The position numbers were made by a program, and so were the translations under genes. From assembly GCA_019135865.1 (NCBI GenBank), contig JAGVVD010000056.1, positions 1-38,618 on the forward strand: 38,618 bases of DNA. The letters are read 5' to 3'. Origin of the DNA: Elusimicrobiota bacterium. Lineage in GTDB: Bacteria > Elusimicrobiota > Elusimicrobia > Elusimicrobiales > UBA9959. Positions 17,061-24,124 of this stretch are shown here, piece by piece. The first letter of the stretch is position 1; each line of letters starts with the position of its first letter. The notes beneath the pieces are model-generated. The model had not been told where the DNA came from. It made no database searches and saw only the letters and a program-made list of their open reading frames with translations.

Positions 17061-17624
17061 ATGGCTCTCAACATCGAACCCCTCGTCGAAAAGATACTGA
17101 AGGAAATAGGCGAAGACCCGTCCCGCGAAGGTCTGAAAAGGACCCCCGCCCGCGTGGCCAGGGCCCTGGAGGAGATGACCGCCGGCTACAAGGCCGACAT
17201 AGACGCTATCTTCAACGGCGCTTTCTTCACGGTCCCCTACCGGGAGATGGTGGTGGTGCGCGACATCGCCTTCCATTCCATGTGCGAACATCACATGCTG
17301 CCGTTCACCGGCAAGGTCCATGTCGCCTACATCCCCGACCACACCATAGTGGGCCTCTCCAAGATCCCGCGGCTGGTGGACGCCTTCGCGCGGCGACTGC
17401 AGATCCAGGAGCGCCTGACCATACAGATAGCCGAGACGCTGGAGCGGAAACTCAAGCCCAAGGGCGTGGGCGTGATAATAGAGGCCAGGCACATGTGCAT
17501 GACGATGAGGGGGGCTAAGAACGAGACCTCGCTGGCGGTGACCAGTTCCCTGCTGGGCTGTTTCGGCAGCGACCCTAAAGTGCGGCAGGAATTCCTGGCG
17601 CTGGCGGGCCCGGACGGACATTAA
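17061..17624 (+). CDS. folE: GTP cyclohydrolase I
   Basis: This 187-aa cytoplasmic enzyme converts GTP to 7,8-dihydroneopterin triphosphate, the first step to folate and other pterins (in some bacteria also to queuosine). The zinc ligands are present: Cys75 and His78 in [10 protein letters not shown] and Cys146 in [10 protein letters not shown]. Other signatures are [20 protein letters not shown] and [16 protein letters not shown]. The length matches the family's catalytic core with a short N-terminus. It lies between a terminator and the tRNA promoter, so it is probably monocistronic; no other folate gene is in the window. The start at 17061 lacks a ribosome-binding site and follows a -10 box closely. 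Confidence 0.96.
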
Positions 17625-17643
17625 GGGGCCCGCTCCGCGGCGG

Positions 17644-17671
17644 TTACAATATCTTTTATTTTTACTATAAT
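17644..17671 (+). promoter_or_regulatory. Promoter of the tRNA-Gly unit
   Basis: TTACAA (17644-17649) and a perfect TATAAT (17666-17671) are 16 bases apart in an AT-rich patch. The predicted start near 17678 is about 10 bases before the tRNA. Confidence 0.65.
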
Positions 17672-17687: not shown

Positions 17688-17761
17688 GCGGGCGTAGTTC
17701 AATGGTAGAACGAGAGCTTCCCAAGCTTTAGACGTGGGTTCGATTCCCATCGCCCGCTCCA
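17688..17761 (+). tRNA. tRNA-Gly, anticodon CCC
   Basis: A complete cloverleaf can be drawn: acceptor GCGGGCG with CGCCCGC, D-arm GTTC/GAAC, anticodon stem AGAGC/GCTTT with loop TTCCCAA (anticodon CCC, reading GGG), variable AGACG-type segment, and T-arm with TTCGATT. The discriminator is T and the 3' CCA is encoded. A CBM48-like gene follows 31 bases later and is probably on the same transcript. Confidence 0.96.
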
Positions 17762-17792
17762 CCGCGAAACTTAATTAAAGGAAATCCTCTTT

Positions 17793-18296
17793 CTGCCCTC
17801 CCGACCGACCGACAGCAAAACCTTCTGGGCCCTCTCGGCCCTTATAAGTTTCTCGATACTGGGCGCGGCCGCCTGGTCCCTTTACGACCGCGTCAGCCTC
17901 TACTTCAGCGAGGACATGGTGAGCATCTCCCCGAAACCCGTCCCTTTGCCCGGCTCCGGGGAGGAAGAGAAGGAGCGCGTGACCGCGCCGGCCGCCGCGG
18001 CGCCCGAAAGACCGGCGGAAAAGCCGGGGGAAAAGGCGGCGGGAACCGCCCCGGCTAAAGCCAGGGCCGTAAAGACCGTCTTCGAGTACAGGGGAGCCGG
18101 GAAAAAGGTCGTCCTGGCCGGCAGTTTCAGCGTCTGGCGGGAACTGCCCATGTCGCGCAGGGACGGCGCCTGGAGGACCGAGGCCTATATCTTTCCCGGC
18201 ACCTACACCTACCATTTCATGGTCGATGGCAGAAGGACGGCGGACCCCGGCAAACCCAAGGCCCCGACCGGGGACTCCATAGTTACCGTTGAATAG
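17793..18296 (+). CDS. Membrane-anchored CBM48/AMPK glycogen-binding-like mini-protein, probable CTG start
   Basis: The C-terminal part (about 75 residues) looks like an isolated CBM48/E-set glycogen-binding domain: VVLAGSFSVWRELPMSRRDG, a Trp, then FPGTYTYHFMVDGRRTADP. Such domains bind alpha-glucans or serve as regulatory modules. The first in-frame ATG is at 17916, giving 126 aa with no anchor. The frame stays open upstream to a TAA at 17772 and encodes a convincing membrane segment (TFWALSALISFSILGAAAWS) followed by LYDRVSLYFSED. No ATG, GTG or TTG lies in that stretch. CTG at 17793, with AAAGGA at 17777-17782, is the best start and gives 167 aa. A Pro/Ala/Glu-rich linker joins anchor and domain. 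The domain call is good; the start is inferred. It follows tRNA-Gly by 31 bases. Confidence 0.7.
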   Translation: MPSRPTDSKTFWALSALISFSILGAAAWSLYDRVSLYFSEDMVSISPKPVPLPGSGEEEKERVTAPAAAAPERPAEKPGEKAAGTAPAKARAVKTVFEYRGAGKKVVLAGSFSVWRELPMSRRDGAWRTEAYIFPGTYTYHFMVDGRRTADPGKPKAPTGDSIVTVE

Positions 18297-18367: not shown

Positions 18368-21300
18368 ATGAATTTCAGGAAGACCCTGGCATTGTCCCTG
18401 CTGGCCCAGGCCCTTGCGGCCGCGGGCGCTTTCGCGCTTTCCACCCCGCGCCATAATCACGCCGTCACCCTGCTGCCCGACGGCAATATCCTGGTGACGG
18501 GGGGGAACACCGACGAGAACACCTATCTGGCGACGGCGGAAATGTACGACATGACCACCAACGCCTGGTCGGCGTGGGGCGGCGGGCTCGGGGTCGCGCG
18601 CTCCTCCCATACCGCCACGCTGATGTCGGACGGCCGCGTCCTCGTCGCCGGCGGCTTCACCACCGGCGGCACGCCGACGGGCGACCTGAGCATCTGCGAT
18701 CCCAGGGACAGGACCTGCGCCGACGCCGGCGTGGACATGGCGGCCCGCGGCGGCCACACGGCGACGCTGCTCTCCGCCGGTCCCAGGTCCGGACATGTGC
18801 TGCTCTGCGGCGGGCAGACCACCGTCTCCTCCGCCTCCATAACGACGGACTGCGAGACTTTCGACCCCGTGGCGGGCGCGCTTTCGCCCGCCGCCTCCAT
18901 GATAAGTTCCAGGATAGGCCATGTCGCCCTGCTGCTGCGCTCCGGTAAGATCTTCGTCAGCGGAGGCGGCAGGCCGGGCAAGCCCGGAACGGAGCCGTGG
19001 ATATTCGAGCCTACCAACGAGATGTACGACCCCGTCGCCGGCACCTGGACCCCGGTGGACGCGCTGCTCCGGGGCAGGATAAACCATACCGCGACGGTGC
19101 TCAACAACGGCAAGATCATGATAGCCGGCGGTTATAACGGCCTGGACAGCATGGTCTGTCTCCGTAATCCGGACGGTCTGGACGAGGACTGCTGGCATAT
19201 CGCCCACCCGGACGTCGCCCTGGCCCAGAGGGTAGGCAGCAAGGGGTACCTGGACGACGCCGAATTCTTCGACCAGGACAGCGGCGCCCGCGTCACCCTG
19301 ATGGAAGATGTCTTCAATCTCATGCCCTACCGGGCCGCCCATCACTCGGCGGTGCTCGAGACCGACGGCCGAGTGCGCATGCACAGGGGTTACGGCAATA
19401 TTTTCCCGACCTTCTTCAACTTTTCCCCCGGACTCGCCAAAGGCGGCGTGCTCCGCCTCGACACCACCGCCGATGAAAGGGTGGCGGACATACGGCCGGA
19501 CAGCACCATAGGATTCCCCCTGGATTTCAACCTGTCCCGGCCCGTGTCGGGACGCCTCGTGGACGCGGAGATCTTCTTCTCCCCGCCGGCCGAAAACACC
19601 GAACCGTCCATAAAACTGGCGGACGCCGAGTTCTACATAGGTTTCGGCACCGCGACGGCCGACGGTTACTCCGTGGGGAAACTCATAGACGAAACTTACG
19701 CTCACGGCCGCTTCAAGCACATAATCAATCTCACCCTGCCCCTCGGCACGGCTTCCTTCCTGCCCATTAGAGCGACCTCCCGGGGCAACACCGTAAGTTC
19801 CAACTTCACACTGGCGGCTCCCGTTTATCCCGAAAGCACCGGCGATATCACGGGCGGAACGCTCCAGACTTCGGTGCGCTTCTGGCTGCCCTATAATTAC
19901 CAGAACAGGGTGATCGGAACGGCCAGAATAGACAGCGCCGCGATCACGGACCCCGGCGAGCAGTTCAACATAAGCCTGACTTCCGGCTCGGCCCCCTTCG
20001 ACATACAGCAGTCCGGCTGCGACTACCTCGAAAAGCTCTGCCTGTTCACGGCCGCCGTCACCTTCTCCAACATAGAGGGGGAGATCACCAATCTTACGCT
20101 GCTGGACGAGGGAACGACTTTCTATACCGGCCTGAACATAGGCGTGAAACCGACCGATATAAGTCTCGAACTGTCCTTTACCGCGGACGAGGTCCACGTC
20201 ATGGAGGACTCCGAAACGACCTATGATTTCCACCAGTCCACCATGGTCGTCCGGGAAATGATATTCTCCAACAACCTGACTTACGTTCCCTCGACCAACC
20301 ACTGGGGGGACCTGAACGGGGGCGAAGAGGGGCTTGATGCCCCGCCGCCGACCTTCGACCATACCGCCATTTACACCCCGGCGGGTGATACCGTACTGCT
20401 GGGCGGCCGGAACTGCGAGGACGATCCGTTCGTCGACTGCCGCCGCGATACCAAGCATTTCCTGGCGATCGACCCTGACGGCGTACTGATCCCCGTGGTG
20501 GAGGGCTCCTGGATCCCGGGCCCCTCCCTCCTCTCCAACCGCGCCGCCCATACCAGCACGGTACTGGCCGACGGCAGCATCCTGACCTGCGGCGGCAGCG
20601 ACGGGATCCGGCCGCTGGATTCCTGCGAACGCATGGACCCCGAGACCATGCAATGGAAGCAGACCGGGCCCATGACCTCCCCCAGGTCCAATCACACGGC
20701 CACGCTGCTGCCCAACGGCAATGTCCTGGCGGCCGGCGGCATCGTCCCGGGCGGAACGGCGGTCGCCACGGCGGAGCTTTATTTCCCGGAAACGGGGACC
20801 TGGGTACGCACTTCGTCCATGACGCATATCCGCCAGCTGCACACCGCCACGCTGATGCCGGACGGCAATGTCCTGGTCACGGGCGGGGCGACGGCCAGCA
20901 CCTATTCGGCCACCGCCGAGATCTACATAACCTCCGCCGCCCACTGGGTCCCCGGCGGCGCGCTCGTCAACGGCAGGTCGCAGCACACCGCCACGCTGCT
21001 CAAGAGCGGGAACGTGCTGCTGGCCGGCGGCGTGAACGGCTTCGGCGCGATGAGGGAGACCGAGATCTACGACTACCTCGGCCGGACCTCGGCGGCCGCG
21101 GCCGACCTGGCGACGTCCCGCTACGGCCATACGGCCAGCCTGCTGCGGGACGGCCGGGTGGTGGTGGTGGGCGGCTCCGACAATATACAGAGCCTGAACA
21201 CCAGCGAGATCTTCGACGGCGCGAACTGGAGCCCGGGCGGCGCCCTGACATGGCACCGCGCCAATCACAGGGCCGCGCTGCTGCCCAACGGGAAACTGAT

Positions 21301-24124
21301 GCTCACCGGCGGCGAGGTCTCCGGCGCCGTACGCACCGTCCCGGAGGGCTACGATCCCGACTTCAATATCTGGTCCGAACAGGGTCAGACCTCCGGCCGG
21401 TCGCGCCACACGCTGGTGATGACCAGGGACAACAAGATCCTCAACATAGGCGGCTGGGACGGCTCGCAGTACCTGAACACCACGGAATACGTGGACTTCA
21501 ATTTCGACCCGGATTCCAAGGGCCTCGCGTCCGATACGACCAGGCAGGCGGTGATCTCCGACGCCACCCCCTATTTCAACCAGGGCTCCACCATCACCCT
21601 GCTCAGTGCGACGACCAATTTCCACGGCGTCACCGAGGCTTCCGGCGGCGGGGCGGGCCCCCGCAATTCCTCTCACAGCAATCCGCGCGTCTACCTGCAG
21701 CAGATAGACAATCCCAGCGGCTTCATGATCGACCTCTCCACGCGCATCTACTCCCTCTACATGAGCCCGGAGACCAACCCGGTCTGGAGCAGGACCACTT
21801 CCTCCATAACGATCAAGACCCCGGACCTGCCGGGCGAGATGCCGCACGGCTGGTACCACCTGCGCGTCGCCGCCAACGGCGTTTTTTCCATGCCCTACAC
21901 GGTACAGGTTACCACCCCGCGTCCCGCCGGCCTCCCCGCTTTCACCTCCCCGGCCGCCGAAGTGCTGGGGACCAGTTCCATCACCTGGACCTGGAACAGG
22001 GGGACCATCCCCGAATACGGGGCGGACGGCTTCGCGGTCTACGCCGCCAGCAACAGCGTCTTCATCACCACCCTGTCCTTCGTCAACGGCAGCGACATAG
22101 CGTCCTACACGCAGACCGGGCTGGCGCCGAACACCCCTTCCTCCGTCATGGTGGCCGCTTATAACCAGGGCGGCTACGGCGCCCTGGCGCGTTCCTCCAC
22201 CCATTACACCCTGGCGATGCCGCCGTCGGACCTCGAGATAACGGATTCCGGTTTCGAGAGCATAACGCTGGAATGGGACCAGCAGGACAATACCCCGCTG
22301 ACGCGTTACGAGCTCAGCATGCAGAAGTCCCTCAACGTCGTAGCCCCGGATTTCTCCGTCAATGTCTCGACCCCCGTCGCTTTCGAGGACGCCTTCACCG
22401 CCTCCAGTCACACGATCACCGGCATAGAGCCGAACTACAATTATTACGTCAGGGCGCGGGCGCGCAACGGCGACGGCGTGCTGACCGCCTTCTCGGACTA
22501 CGTCTCCACCATCACGGTGGGGCAGGTGCTCAACGTGCAGGGCATCCCGCTCAGCGGCCACGAGATCAACTGGTCCTGGATGCAGTCGGGCGGGGCCGAC
22601 TATTACGAACTCTTCGACATCAGCGACGGCACCGAGACCGCGGTGCTGGTCAGCTCGCCGGTCTACGCCAACAGTTACACCCAGACCGGCATCTCGACCA
22701 ACACCCCGGCGCAGGTGGTCGTCTACGCGGTGAAAACGGTAGGGGGCAACCCCGTCAAGGGGACGCCGGGCTTTTCGCCCGAGGTCTACACTCTCGCCAT
22801 AGCCCCGCTGCCCTGGACCTTCACGAGCATCTCCACCGGTTCCCTGGCGCTGAACTGGCTGCCCAACGGCAACCCGCCCGAGACCAACTACTGGGTGGAG
22901 CTGAGTTCCGCTTCCGACTTCGGCTCCTCTTTCGTGACCGAAGTCAAGGGACTCTCGACGGCCAAGTTCTACGGGCTGGTCCCCAACACGCGCTACTATG
23001 GCCGGGTCCGGGCCCGCAACGGCGACGACGTGCCCACCGCGATAGTTTCCCTGGGCTCCCGGTACACCCTGGCCCAGCCGCCGATCCTGGTGACCGCGCC
23101 CTCCATCTCGATGTCCGGCGTGACGCTGACCTGGAGCGGGGCGGACAATTCCGACGAGACCTTTTTCGAGGTGCGCAGCAGCACCAGCAGCGCTTTCGTG
23201 ACCGTCTCCACCCACGTCCCCTTCTCCGCCCTTTTCAACGGGGATAGCGCCTTCATCTCCGGCCTGCTCACCTCCACTTCCTATTATTTCGACGTCGCGG
23301 CCATCAACGGCGAAGGGGTCATCACTCCGCGGACGCAGTGCGTGCCCCTGGTCTACACCTCGGCCGGCCCCGCCGGCACGCCTTCCGGGGCGGTGGGCGG
23401 GACCAGCGACCCGAACGACGACACCACCATAGCCGGCACGCTGCCCAACGGCCACACGGTCTCCATCTTCGTCCCGCAGGGCTCCTTCCAGGCCAGGACC
23501 GGCATCGCCATCGCCTCCCATTCCGTGTCGCTCTACGGGAGCAATCCCTGCGGCCAGAGCGCCGCCGACCTTCCCACGCTGGTCTTCGACATATACAGCG
23601 AGGGGGGGTCACAGCCCTTCGAGCCGGTGTCGCTCACCATAGGCTACGGCAATCTCTCGTCCGCCCAGATAAGCCAGATCAACCAGAACATCTCGAAACT
23701 GGTGCTGGCCAGGTACAACCCGGTCTCGGGCCAGTGCCTGCCCCTGGAGACCGTGGTGGACCAGTACGGCTCCGTCAACGGTTACCCCAGGACCATACGC
23801 GCCTCGCTGAACCATTTCAGCGTCTTCCAGCTCATCATCAAGGAAGCCGCGGCCAACCTCGAAGGCACGCTGATCTATCCCAATCCGTTCTACCCCAACC
23901 GCGGCCAGGGTTTCGTGACCTTCACTAACATGCCGTCCCGCGCCAAGGCCACCGTTTACACCATCTCGGGCACCAAGGTCTGGGAGGGCACCGCCACCGG
24001 CTCCGGCGTGCTGGTCTGGCGCGGCGTCAACGAGAGCGGCGTGCCCGTGGGCAGCGGCGTCTATTTCGTCTCGATCAAGTCCTCTTCCGGCGACAAGATC
24101 TTCAAACTGGCGGTGGAGAGATGA
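18368..24124 (+). CDS. Giant secreted kelch-repeat / fibronectin III protein with C-terminal sorting-type (FlgD-like) domain
   Basis: This 1918-aa surface or secreted protein has a Sec signal peptide (1 to about 23). Kelch motifs of the form H-T-A-T-L-L-x-x-G-x-V-L-x-x-G-G form a first block (about five, residues 28-260) and a second (about eight, residues 660-1030), so two beta-propellers are likely. A non-kelch insert lies between (about 370-640). A galactose-oxidase-like C-terminal segment (about 1070-1185, ending MPHGWYHLRVAANGVFS) follows. Five FN3-like modules (about 1187-1660) show repeats such as NYNYYVRARARNGDGV. The last 85 residues start YPNPFYPNRGQG and contain VYTISGTKVWEG and GSGVYFVSI, the pattern of FlgD-like / type IX C-terminal sorting domains. 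It overlaps the PorV-like gene by ATGA. Ligand and function are unknown; adhesion or glycan binding is inference. Confidence 0.88.
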   Translation: MNFRKTLALSLLAQALAAAGAFALSTPRHNHAVTLLPDGNILVTGGNTDENTYLATAEMYDMTTNAWSAWGGGLGVARSSHTATLMSDGRVLVAGGFTTGGTPTGDLSICDPRDRTCADAGVDMAARGGHTATLLSAGPRSGHVLLCGGQTTVSSASITTDCETFDPVAGALSPAASMISSRIGHVALLLRSGKIFVSGGGRPGKPGTEPWIFEPTNEMYDPVAGTWTPVDALLRGRINHTATVLNNGKIMIAGGYNGLDSMVCLRNPDGLDEDCWHIAHPDVALAQRVGSKGYLDDAEFFDQDSGARVTLMEDVFNLMPYRAAHHSAVLETDGRVRMHRGYGNIFPTFFNFSPGLAKGGVLRLDTTADERVADIRPDSTIGFPLDFNLSRPVSGRLVDAEIFFSPPAENTEPSIKLADAEFYIGFGTATADGYSVGKLIDETYAHGRFKHIINLTLPLGTASFLPIRATSRGNTVSSNFTLAAPVYPESTGDITGGTLQTSVRFWLPYNYQNRVIGTARIDSAAITDPGEQFNISLTSGSAPFDIQQSGCDYLEKLCLFTAAVTFSNIEGEITNLTLLDEGTTFYTGLNIGVKPTDISLELSFTADEVHVMEDSETTYDFHQSTMVVREMIFSNNLTYVPSTNHWGDLNGGEEGLDAPPPTFDHTAIYTPAGDTVLLGGRNCEDDPFVDCRRDTKHFLAIDPDGVLIPVVEGSWIPGPSLLSNRAAHTSTVLADGSILTCGGSDGIRPLDSCERMDPETMQWKQTGPMTSPRSNHTATLLPNGNVLAAGGIVPGGTAVATAELYFPETGTWVRTSSMTHIRQLHTATLMPDGNVLVTGGATASTYSATAEIYITSAAHWVPGGALVNGRSQHTATLLKSGNVLLAGGVNGFGAMRETEIYDYLGRTSAAAADLATSRYGHTASLLRDGRVVVVGGSDNIQSLNTSEIFDGANWSPGGALTWHRANHRAALLPNGKLMLTGGEVSGAVRTVPEGYDPDFNIWSEQGQTSGRSRHTLVMTRDNKILNIGGWDGSQYLNTTEYVDFNFDPDSKGLASDTTRQAVISDATPYFNQGSTITLLSATTNFHGVTEASGGGAGPRNSSHSNPRVYLQQIDNPSGFMIDLSTRIYSLYMSPETNPVWSRTTSSITIKTPDLPGEMPHGWYHLRVAANGVFSMPYTVQVTTPRPAGLPAFTSPAAEVLGTSSITWTWNRGTIPEYGADGFAVYAASNSVFITTLSFVNGSDIASYTQTGLAPNTPSSVMVAAYNQGGYGALARSSTHYTLAMPPSDLEITDSGFESITLEWDQQDNTPLTRYELSMQKSLNVVAPDFSVNVSTPVAFEDAFTASSHTITGIEPNYNYYVRARARNGDGVLTAFSDYVSTITVGQVLNVQGIPLSGHEINWSWMQSGGADYYELFDISDGTETAVLVSSPVYANSYTQTGISTNTPAQVVVYAVKTVGGNPVKGTPGFSPEVYTLAIAPLPWTFTSISTGSLALNWLPNGNPPETNYWVELSSASDFGSSFVTEVKGLSTAKFYGLVPNTRYYGRVRARNGDDVPTAIVSLGSRYTLAQPPILVTAPSISMSGVTLTWSGADNSDETFFEVRSSTSSAFVTVSTHVPFSALFNGDSAFISGLLTSTSYYFDVAAINGEGVITPRTQCVPLVYTSAGPAGTPSGAVGGTSDPNDDTTIAGTLPNGHTVSIFVPQGSFQARTGIAIASHSVSLYGSNPCGQSAADLPTLVFDIYSEGGSQPFEPVSLTIGYGNLSSAQISQINQNISKLVLARYNPVSGQCLPLETVVDQYGSVNGYPRTIRASLNHFSVFQLIIKEAAANLEGTLIYPNPFYPNRGQGFVTFTNMPSRAKATVYTISGTKVWEGTATGSGVLVWRGVNESGVPVGSGVYFVSIKSSSGDKIFKLAVER

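Follow-up and report, generated by a model that had tools for sequence, protein, structure and literature searches.

A probable CTG start with a matching Shine-Dalgarno sequence for a membrane-anchored CBM48 protein in one genus of Elusimicrobiales

The window, the whole 38,618-nucleotide stretch of Elusimicrobiota DNA that was analysed, holds a gene for a small CBM48 protein with no standard start codon ahead of its membrane anchor. We consider it likely, at a probability of roughly 0.85, that a CTG at 17793 starts this gene as a 167-residue anchored protein, that a Shine-Dalgarno sequence places the ribosome there, and that an ATG start was replaced by CTG within the genus as the Shine-Dalgarno was gained. 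The predicted coding sequence (17793–18296, + strand, stop included) would encode a short basic N-terminus, one transmembrane helix, a linker rich in Pro, Ala and Glu, and a CBM48 domain.

The start codon and its conservation

The reading frame is open from 17775 to a stop at 18294–18296. An earlier note on this DNA had described it as open back to 17772; the frame is indeed open, but that position already belongs to the preceding in-frame stop, TAA (17772–17774). As that note had said, there is no ATG, GTG or TTG upstream of the in-frame ATG at 17916–17918 (a GTG follows at 17919), and AAAGGA (17777–17782) lies 10 bases 5' of the CTG at 17793–17795. A start at 17916 would, as also claimed, discard the anchor, since the hydrophobic segment WALSALISFSILGAAAWSL (17826–17882) falls 5' of it. 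Hydropathy (Kyte-Doolittle mean 1.61) and a model helix over residues 9–33 both agree with the transmembrane segment proposed for this upstream region.

To place the start, we aligned orthologues from metagenome-assembled genomes of Elusimicrobia, Elusimicrobiales and Elusimicrobiota, the closest three being Ess09-09, UBA11179 and X2_MetaBAT.4. The gene was matched in 60 of the 61 genomes searched, from which 30 loci were read, and scanning the GTDB collection added a set of 39; merging both sets by protein yielded 50 distinct orthologues, four from the genus (the 2.95 Mb window genome, G000, with G001, G002 and G003) and 46 from outside it. The earlier note had looked to such an alignment for an ATG at the matching position, and one stands directly before the same membrane segment in 46/46 orthologues outside the genus, mostly as MTKSK-x-FW. 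It had also named orthologues that start at the internal ATG, or a sequencing error, as findings that would overturn an upstream start. None of the 50 starts at the internal position, and the retention of the CTG and its ribosome-binding site in all four genomes of the genus rules out, for practical purposes, a sequencing error.

All four genus members lack ATG, GTG and TTG before the membrane segment (G002 has one TTG inside the segment itself) and share a start region of the form AAGGA-N9/10-CTG-CC, after which comes the counterpart of TKSK. In the alignment, the relatives' ATG falls four codons 3' of this CTG; the start would therefore have moved upstream as well as changed. In G001–G003 the frame meets a TAA four codons 5' of the CTG, and the CTG is the only near-cognate codon that all four members have at one homologous position; in G003 it is the only one in the start stretch. 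Taken together, these bounds would put the start at the CTG, provided that the anchor is translated at all. A different non-standard codon could in principle serve as the start of the anchor, since ATC 17784 and AAG 17778 are near-cognates in G000 and a second CTG in G001 and G002 aligns with the relatives' ATG. We regard this as quite improbable, because none of these codons is shared: the second position is CTT in G003 and CCG in G000, ATC and AAG are absent in G001–G003, and AAAGGA lies too near ATC 17784, which begins one base 3' of it, to act as its Shine-Dalgarno. The CTG reading of the start is thus well supported by the alignment. The four genomes share ancestry, and the conservation of the codon and of AAGGA represents few independent events; because CTG also serves as a normal codon for leucine, its conservation alone is weak evidence of a start.

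The sequence downstream of the CTG appears to evolve as coding DNA. For codons 2–12, dN is 0 at a dS of 0.33–0.59 among G001–G003 (dN is about 0.18 against G000), and for the anchor part dN is 0.10–0.18 at a dS of 0.43–1.1 among the four genomes. This purifying selection argues against a start at the internal ATG 17916 (or GTG 17919), which would yield a soluble CBM48 protein and leave the upstream frame as the remnant of a formerly anchored protein. ATG 17916 is the first standard start codon of the frame, but the aligned residues in the four genus members are M, V, T and T, and we therefore take it for a chance methionine; in G002, moreover, no ATG, GTG or TTG occurs from the TTG in the membrane segment to an ATG within the CBM. 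We give this reading very little weight.

The same data bear on whether the gene is decaying in the genus after losing its start. The ancestral ATG is gone from 4/4 genomes, but the reading frame is intact in all of them and whole-gene dN is 0.10–0.24 at a dS of 0.45–0.98 among the four, which contradicts decay and makes it scarcely credible. Equally remote is a normal start upstream or in another frame followed by a frameshift or stop readthrough, for which we found no support. A tRNA-Gly gene upstream is separated from the CTG by only 31 nt in G000 and by 29 nt in G003; the sole ATG of this upstream region in G000 lies inside the tRNA, in a frame that meets a stop before the tRNA ends.

Ribosome binding and the initiator tRNA

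The Shine-Dalgarno-like sequence TAAAGGA (17776–17782, + strand) is complementary to the 3' end of the window genome's 16S rRNA, GGATCACCTCCTTTA. Pairing between the two would place the ribosome at CTG 17793, where the initiator fMet-tRNA would read CUG as a weak near-cognate start; the first residue would therefore be Met and the protein level low. A Shine-Dalgarno-like word (AGGA, GGAG or GAGG) lies 5–18 nt upstream of the start in all four CTG genes versus 4 of the 46 ATG genes (Fisher 3e-4, with related sequences treated as independent), and so the Shine-Dalgarno seems to have been gained together with the start switch. The ancestral gene would have had an ATG start, mostly without a Shine-Dalgarno; in the genus the ATG would have been lost and the CTG four codons upstream would have taken over, with the gained Shine-Dalgarno compensating for the weak codon. 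Folding the four genus leaders revealed no shared hairpin in the start region.

Such compensation has a parallel. The parts of Belinky et al. (PMC5622118) that we draw on report that loss of AUG is accompanied by a stronger Shine-Dalgarno in compensated switches to GUG or UUG, and that leaderless mRNAs appear to require AUG. The CBM48 gene resembles those switches in its lost AUG and stronger Shine-Dalgarno but differs in its use of CUG and in the four-codon upstream shift. At two loci outside the genus (L012 in G035 and L020 in G034), the ATG of the gene lies only 6–7 nt 3' of a tRNA, without a Shine-Dalgarno, and the processed mRNA would therefore be nearly leaderless. The gain of a Shine-Dalgarno in the genus may have removed this need for AUG, so that CTG could take over. 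We also considered a leaderless start in the genus itself, from a TATAAT-like box just 5' of the CTG, and rejected it: TATNAT is present in G001–G003 and absent from G000, and the Shine-Dalgarno is present in 4/4.

The initiator-type tRNA-Met of the genus has the anticodon stem CAAGG/CCUUG and C33, giving an A29-U41 pair. The E. coli initiator tRNA has G29-C41. Across the family (L102–L105, L114–L138, L141 and L142), initiator-type tRNA-Met carries A29-U41, C33 and mostly U1-A72, rather than U33 and three G-C pairs. Of 30 loci taken, 28 yielded a tRNA with A29-U41 and C33, 27 with identical stems and one with a changed 28–42 pair; the search pattern did not read the two f2 loci L139 and L140. 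With an earlier sequence pattern for the initiator tRNA, none of the 12 hits examined (of 21) lay within ARAGORN tRNAs. A published study (PMC11497404, in the portion consulted) reports that, in vitro, CUG is discriminated against less when the neighbouring 30–40 pair is altered, and that the 29–41 pair is contacted by G1338 of 16S rRNA. It is conceivable, though in our judgement unlikely, that A29-U41 and C33 loosen start proofreading enough to make CUG usable, with the genus CTG as one result and further unannotated CTG starts elsewhere in Elusimicrobiales. The tRNA was rejected as sole cause of the switch, as the ATG-using genomes G017, G029, G033 and G036 carry one that is 100% identical; since ATG users share the variant, it is at most a permissive background for CUG.

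The neighbourhood of the gene

The tRNA-Gly gene (anticodon CCC, CCA encoded; 17688–17761, + strand, ARAGORN) is preceded by a promoter-like site, GTTACA-17-TATAAT (17643–17671, + strand), with 10/12 consensus matches; two such sites were found, against a mean of 0.2 in shuffles. On the + strand of the window, the stretch from the tRNA to the CTG yielded neither a promoter-like nor a terminator-like site. Transcription of the gene probably begins at the tRNA-Gly promoter, with the mRNA freed by 3' processing of the tRNA. Upstream lies folE, for GTP cyclohydrolase I (17061–17624, + strand; PF01227, E 3.2e-75), and directly downstream a gene for a large Kelch and fibronectin-III protein (18368–24124, + strand).

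This arrangement recurs among the relatives. The tRNA-Gly(CCC) lies 5' of the CBM48 gene in 28/30 and 37/39 loci of the two overlapping sets. Of the four loci without it, three have under 260 nt of contig upstream (L009 and L035, which are one record, and L047), and L023 has about 440 nt. In the GTDB set, FolE is matched in 35/39 loci, upstream in all 35, and the Kelch protein in 39/39, with all 12 listed positions downstream. The linkage of tRNA-Gly and the CBM48 gene is thus old and common in the order Elusimicrobiales, and the earlier note's description of it as unusual applies outside the order but not within it. The order of genes differs in L026 (G015), where the sequence, read by eye, runs tRNA, FolE-like frame, CBM48 gene; the tRNA would therefore have moved relative to folE.

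A separate observation in Elusimicrobiales concerns a short repeat with the core GCTCGCTGACGCTCGC, found directly 3' of tRNA genes (Gly-CCC, Gly-TCC, Gly-GCC, Trp and Thr). One of its arms repeats the 3' end of the preceding tRNA in inverted orientation, the other in direct orientation. The core had 12 matches in 7 of 41 genomes, 11 of them behind a tRNA (the exception is L070); the repeat loci, all outside the window, are L077 (G001:C7), L071 (G002), L072–L076 and L078–L081. The repeat looks like a mobile element that copies tRNA ends. Among the matches listed in a literature search on tRNA-downstream palindromic elements, we found no counterpart.

The anchored protein and the rarity of its start

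The C-terminal part of the protein (18069–18263, + strand) matches the Pfam family AMPK1_CBM, a CBM48-type domain (PF16561; E 7.9e-13, 48.9 bits versus a curated cut-off of 26.8). Beyond the single helix, the predicted structure comprises a low-confidence linker (residues 52–86) and a beta-sandwich, with pLDDT 78–91 over residues 91–167, that superimposes on the CBM of AMPK beta2 (4yee; VIA-align Z 14.1, rmsd 1.4, 79 residues). The protein is thus like the glycogen-binding module of AMPK beta in sequence family and fold, and differs in being a lone CBM48 domain on a membrane anchor. Trp100 and Trp133 of AMPK-beta1 are the glycogen-stacking tryptophans. The equivalent of the former, W115, is invariant (13/13 aligned), and that of the latter is K, Q or R in 48/50 orthologues, the other two not being read. 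Because one of the two stacking tryptophans is missing, glycogen binding is doubtful; for the glycogen-binding-like domain of the earlier note, the family and fold are supported and glycogen binding itself is not. A search of the literature for 'elusimicrobia' with 'glycogen-binding' found nothing.

The basic N-terminus suggests an N-in, C-out topology, in which the protein would be anchored in the inner membrane with its CBM48 on the outer, periplasmic side and would therefore not meet cytoplasmic glycogen. The catalytic domain of glycogen/starch synthase (Pfam Glyco_transf_5) was matched in 9 of 11 genomes, the window genome included, and the same genome has a second, distant CBM48-like match at G000:C49:23108-23374 (E 8.4e-7, in a 190 aa frame). 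Our best guess, weakly supported, is that the protein belongs to the envelope and that its CBM48 recognises a different glycan or a partner protein.

Natural CTG starts are already known. As cited in the part of PMC11983097 used here, CTG starts 20 of nearly 85,000 annotated genes, and the portion of PMC5622118 on hand counts 2 AUG-to-CUG switches among 61,358 reconstructed AUG starts, a rarity that weighs against our reading. The rep gene of FIB plasmids (PMC11983097, same part) has a CTG start that N-terminal analysis and mutation both confirm, and it resembles our case in its good ribosome-binding site, its conservation within a group and the usual mis-annotation at a downstream codon. It differs in that it encodes a plasmid replication protein limited by a proven CTG start, whereas the CBM48 gene is chromosomal, from Elusimicrobiota, and argued from comparison. 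On that footing, the CBM48 gene would add a conserved, genus-wide case gained together with a Shine-Dalgarno.

A codon-usage scan of 173,618 of the 2.95 million bases of the genome (the window and seven further stretches, 110 gene calls), which detects only CTG starts well upstream of the next ATG, GTG or TTG, gave this gene the top coding score upstream of its first such codon (25.1 bits across 36 codons). The runners-up, at 11.9 and 8.3 bits, both fell in 60–80 aa frames resembling antisense artefacts. The CTG start thus appears to belong to this gene and not visibly to the whole genome.

Standard gene finders, which allow only ATG, GTG and TTG, would annotate the CBM48 protein without its anchor and so suggest a soluble glycogen-binding protein. 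Read as we propose, the gene would represent a clean natural change from AUG to CUG that became fixed across a genus, accompanied by a matching Shine-Dalgarno gain, in a phylum for which, to our knowledge, hardly any experimental translation data exist. It may offer a system for testing how CUG starts are made possible by a strong Shine-Dalgarno and perhaps also by an unusual initiator tRNA.
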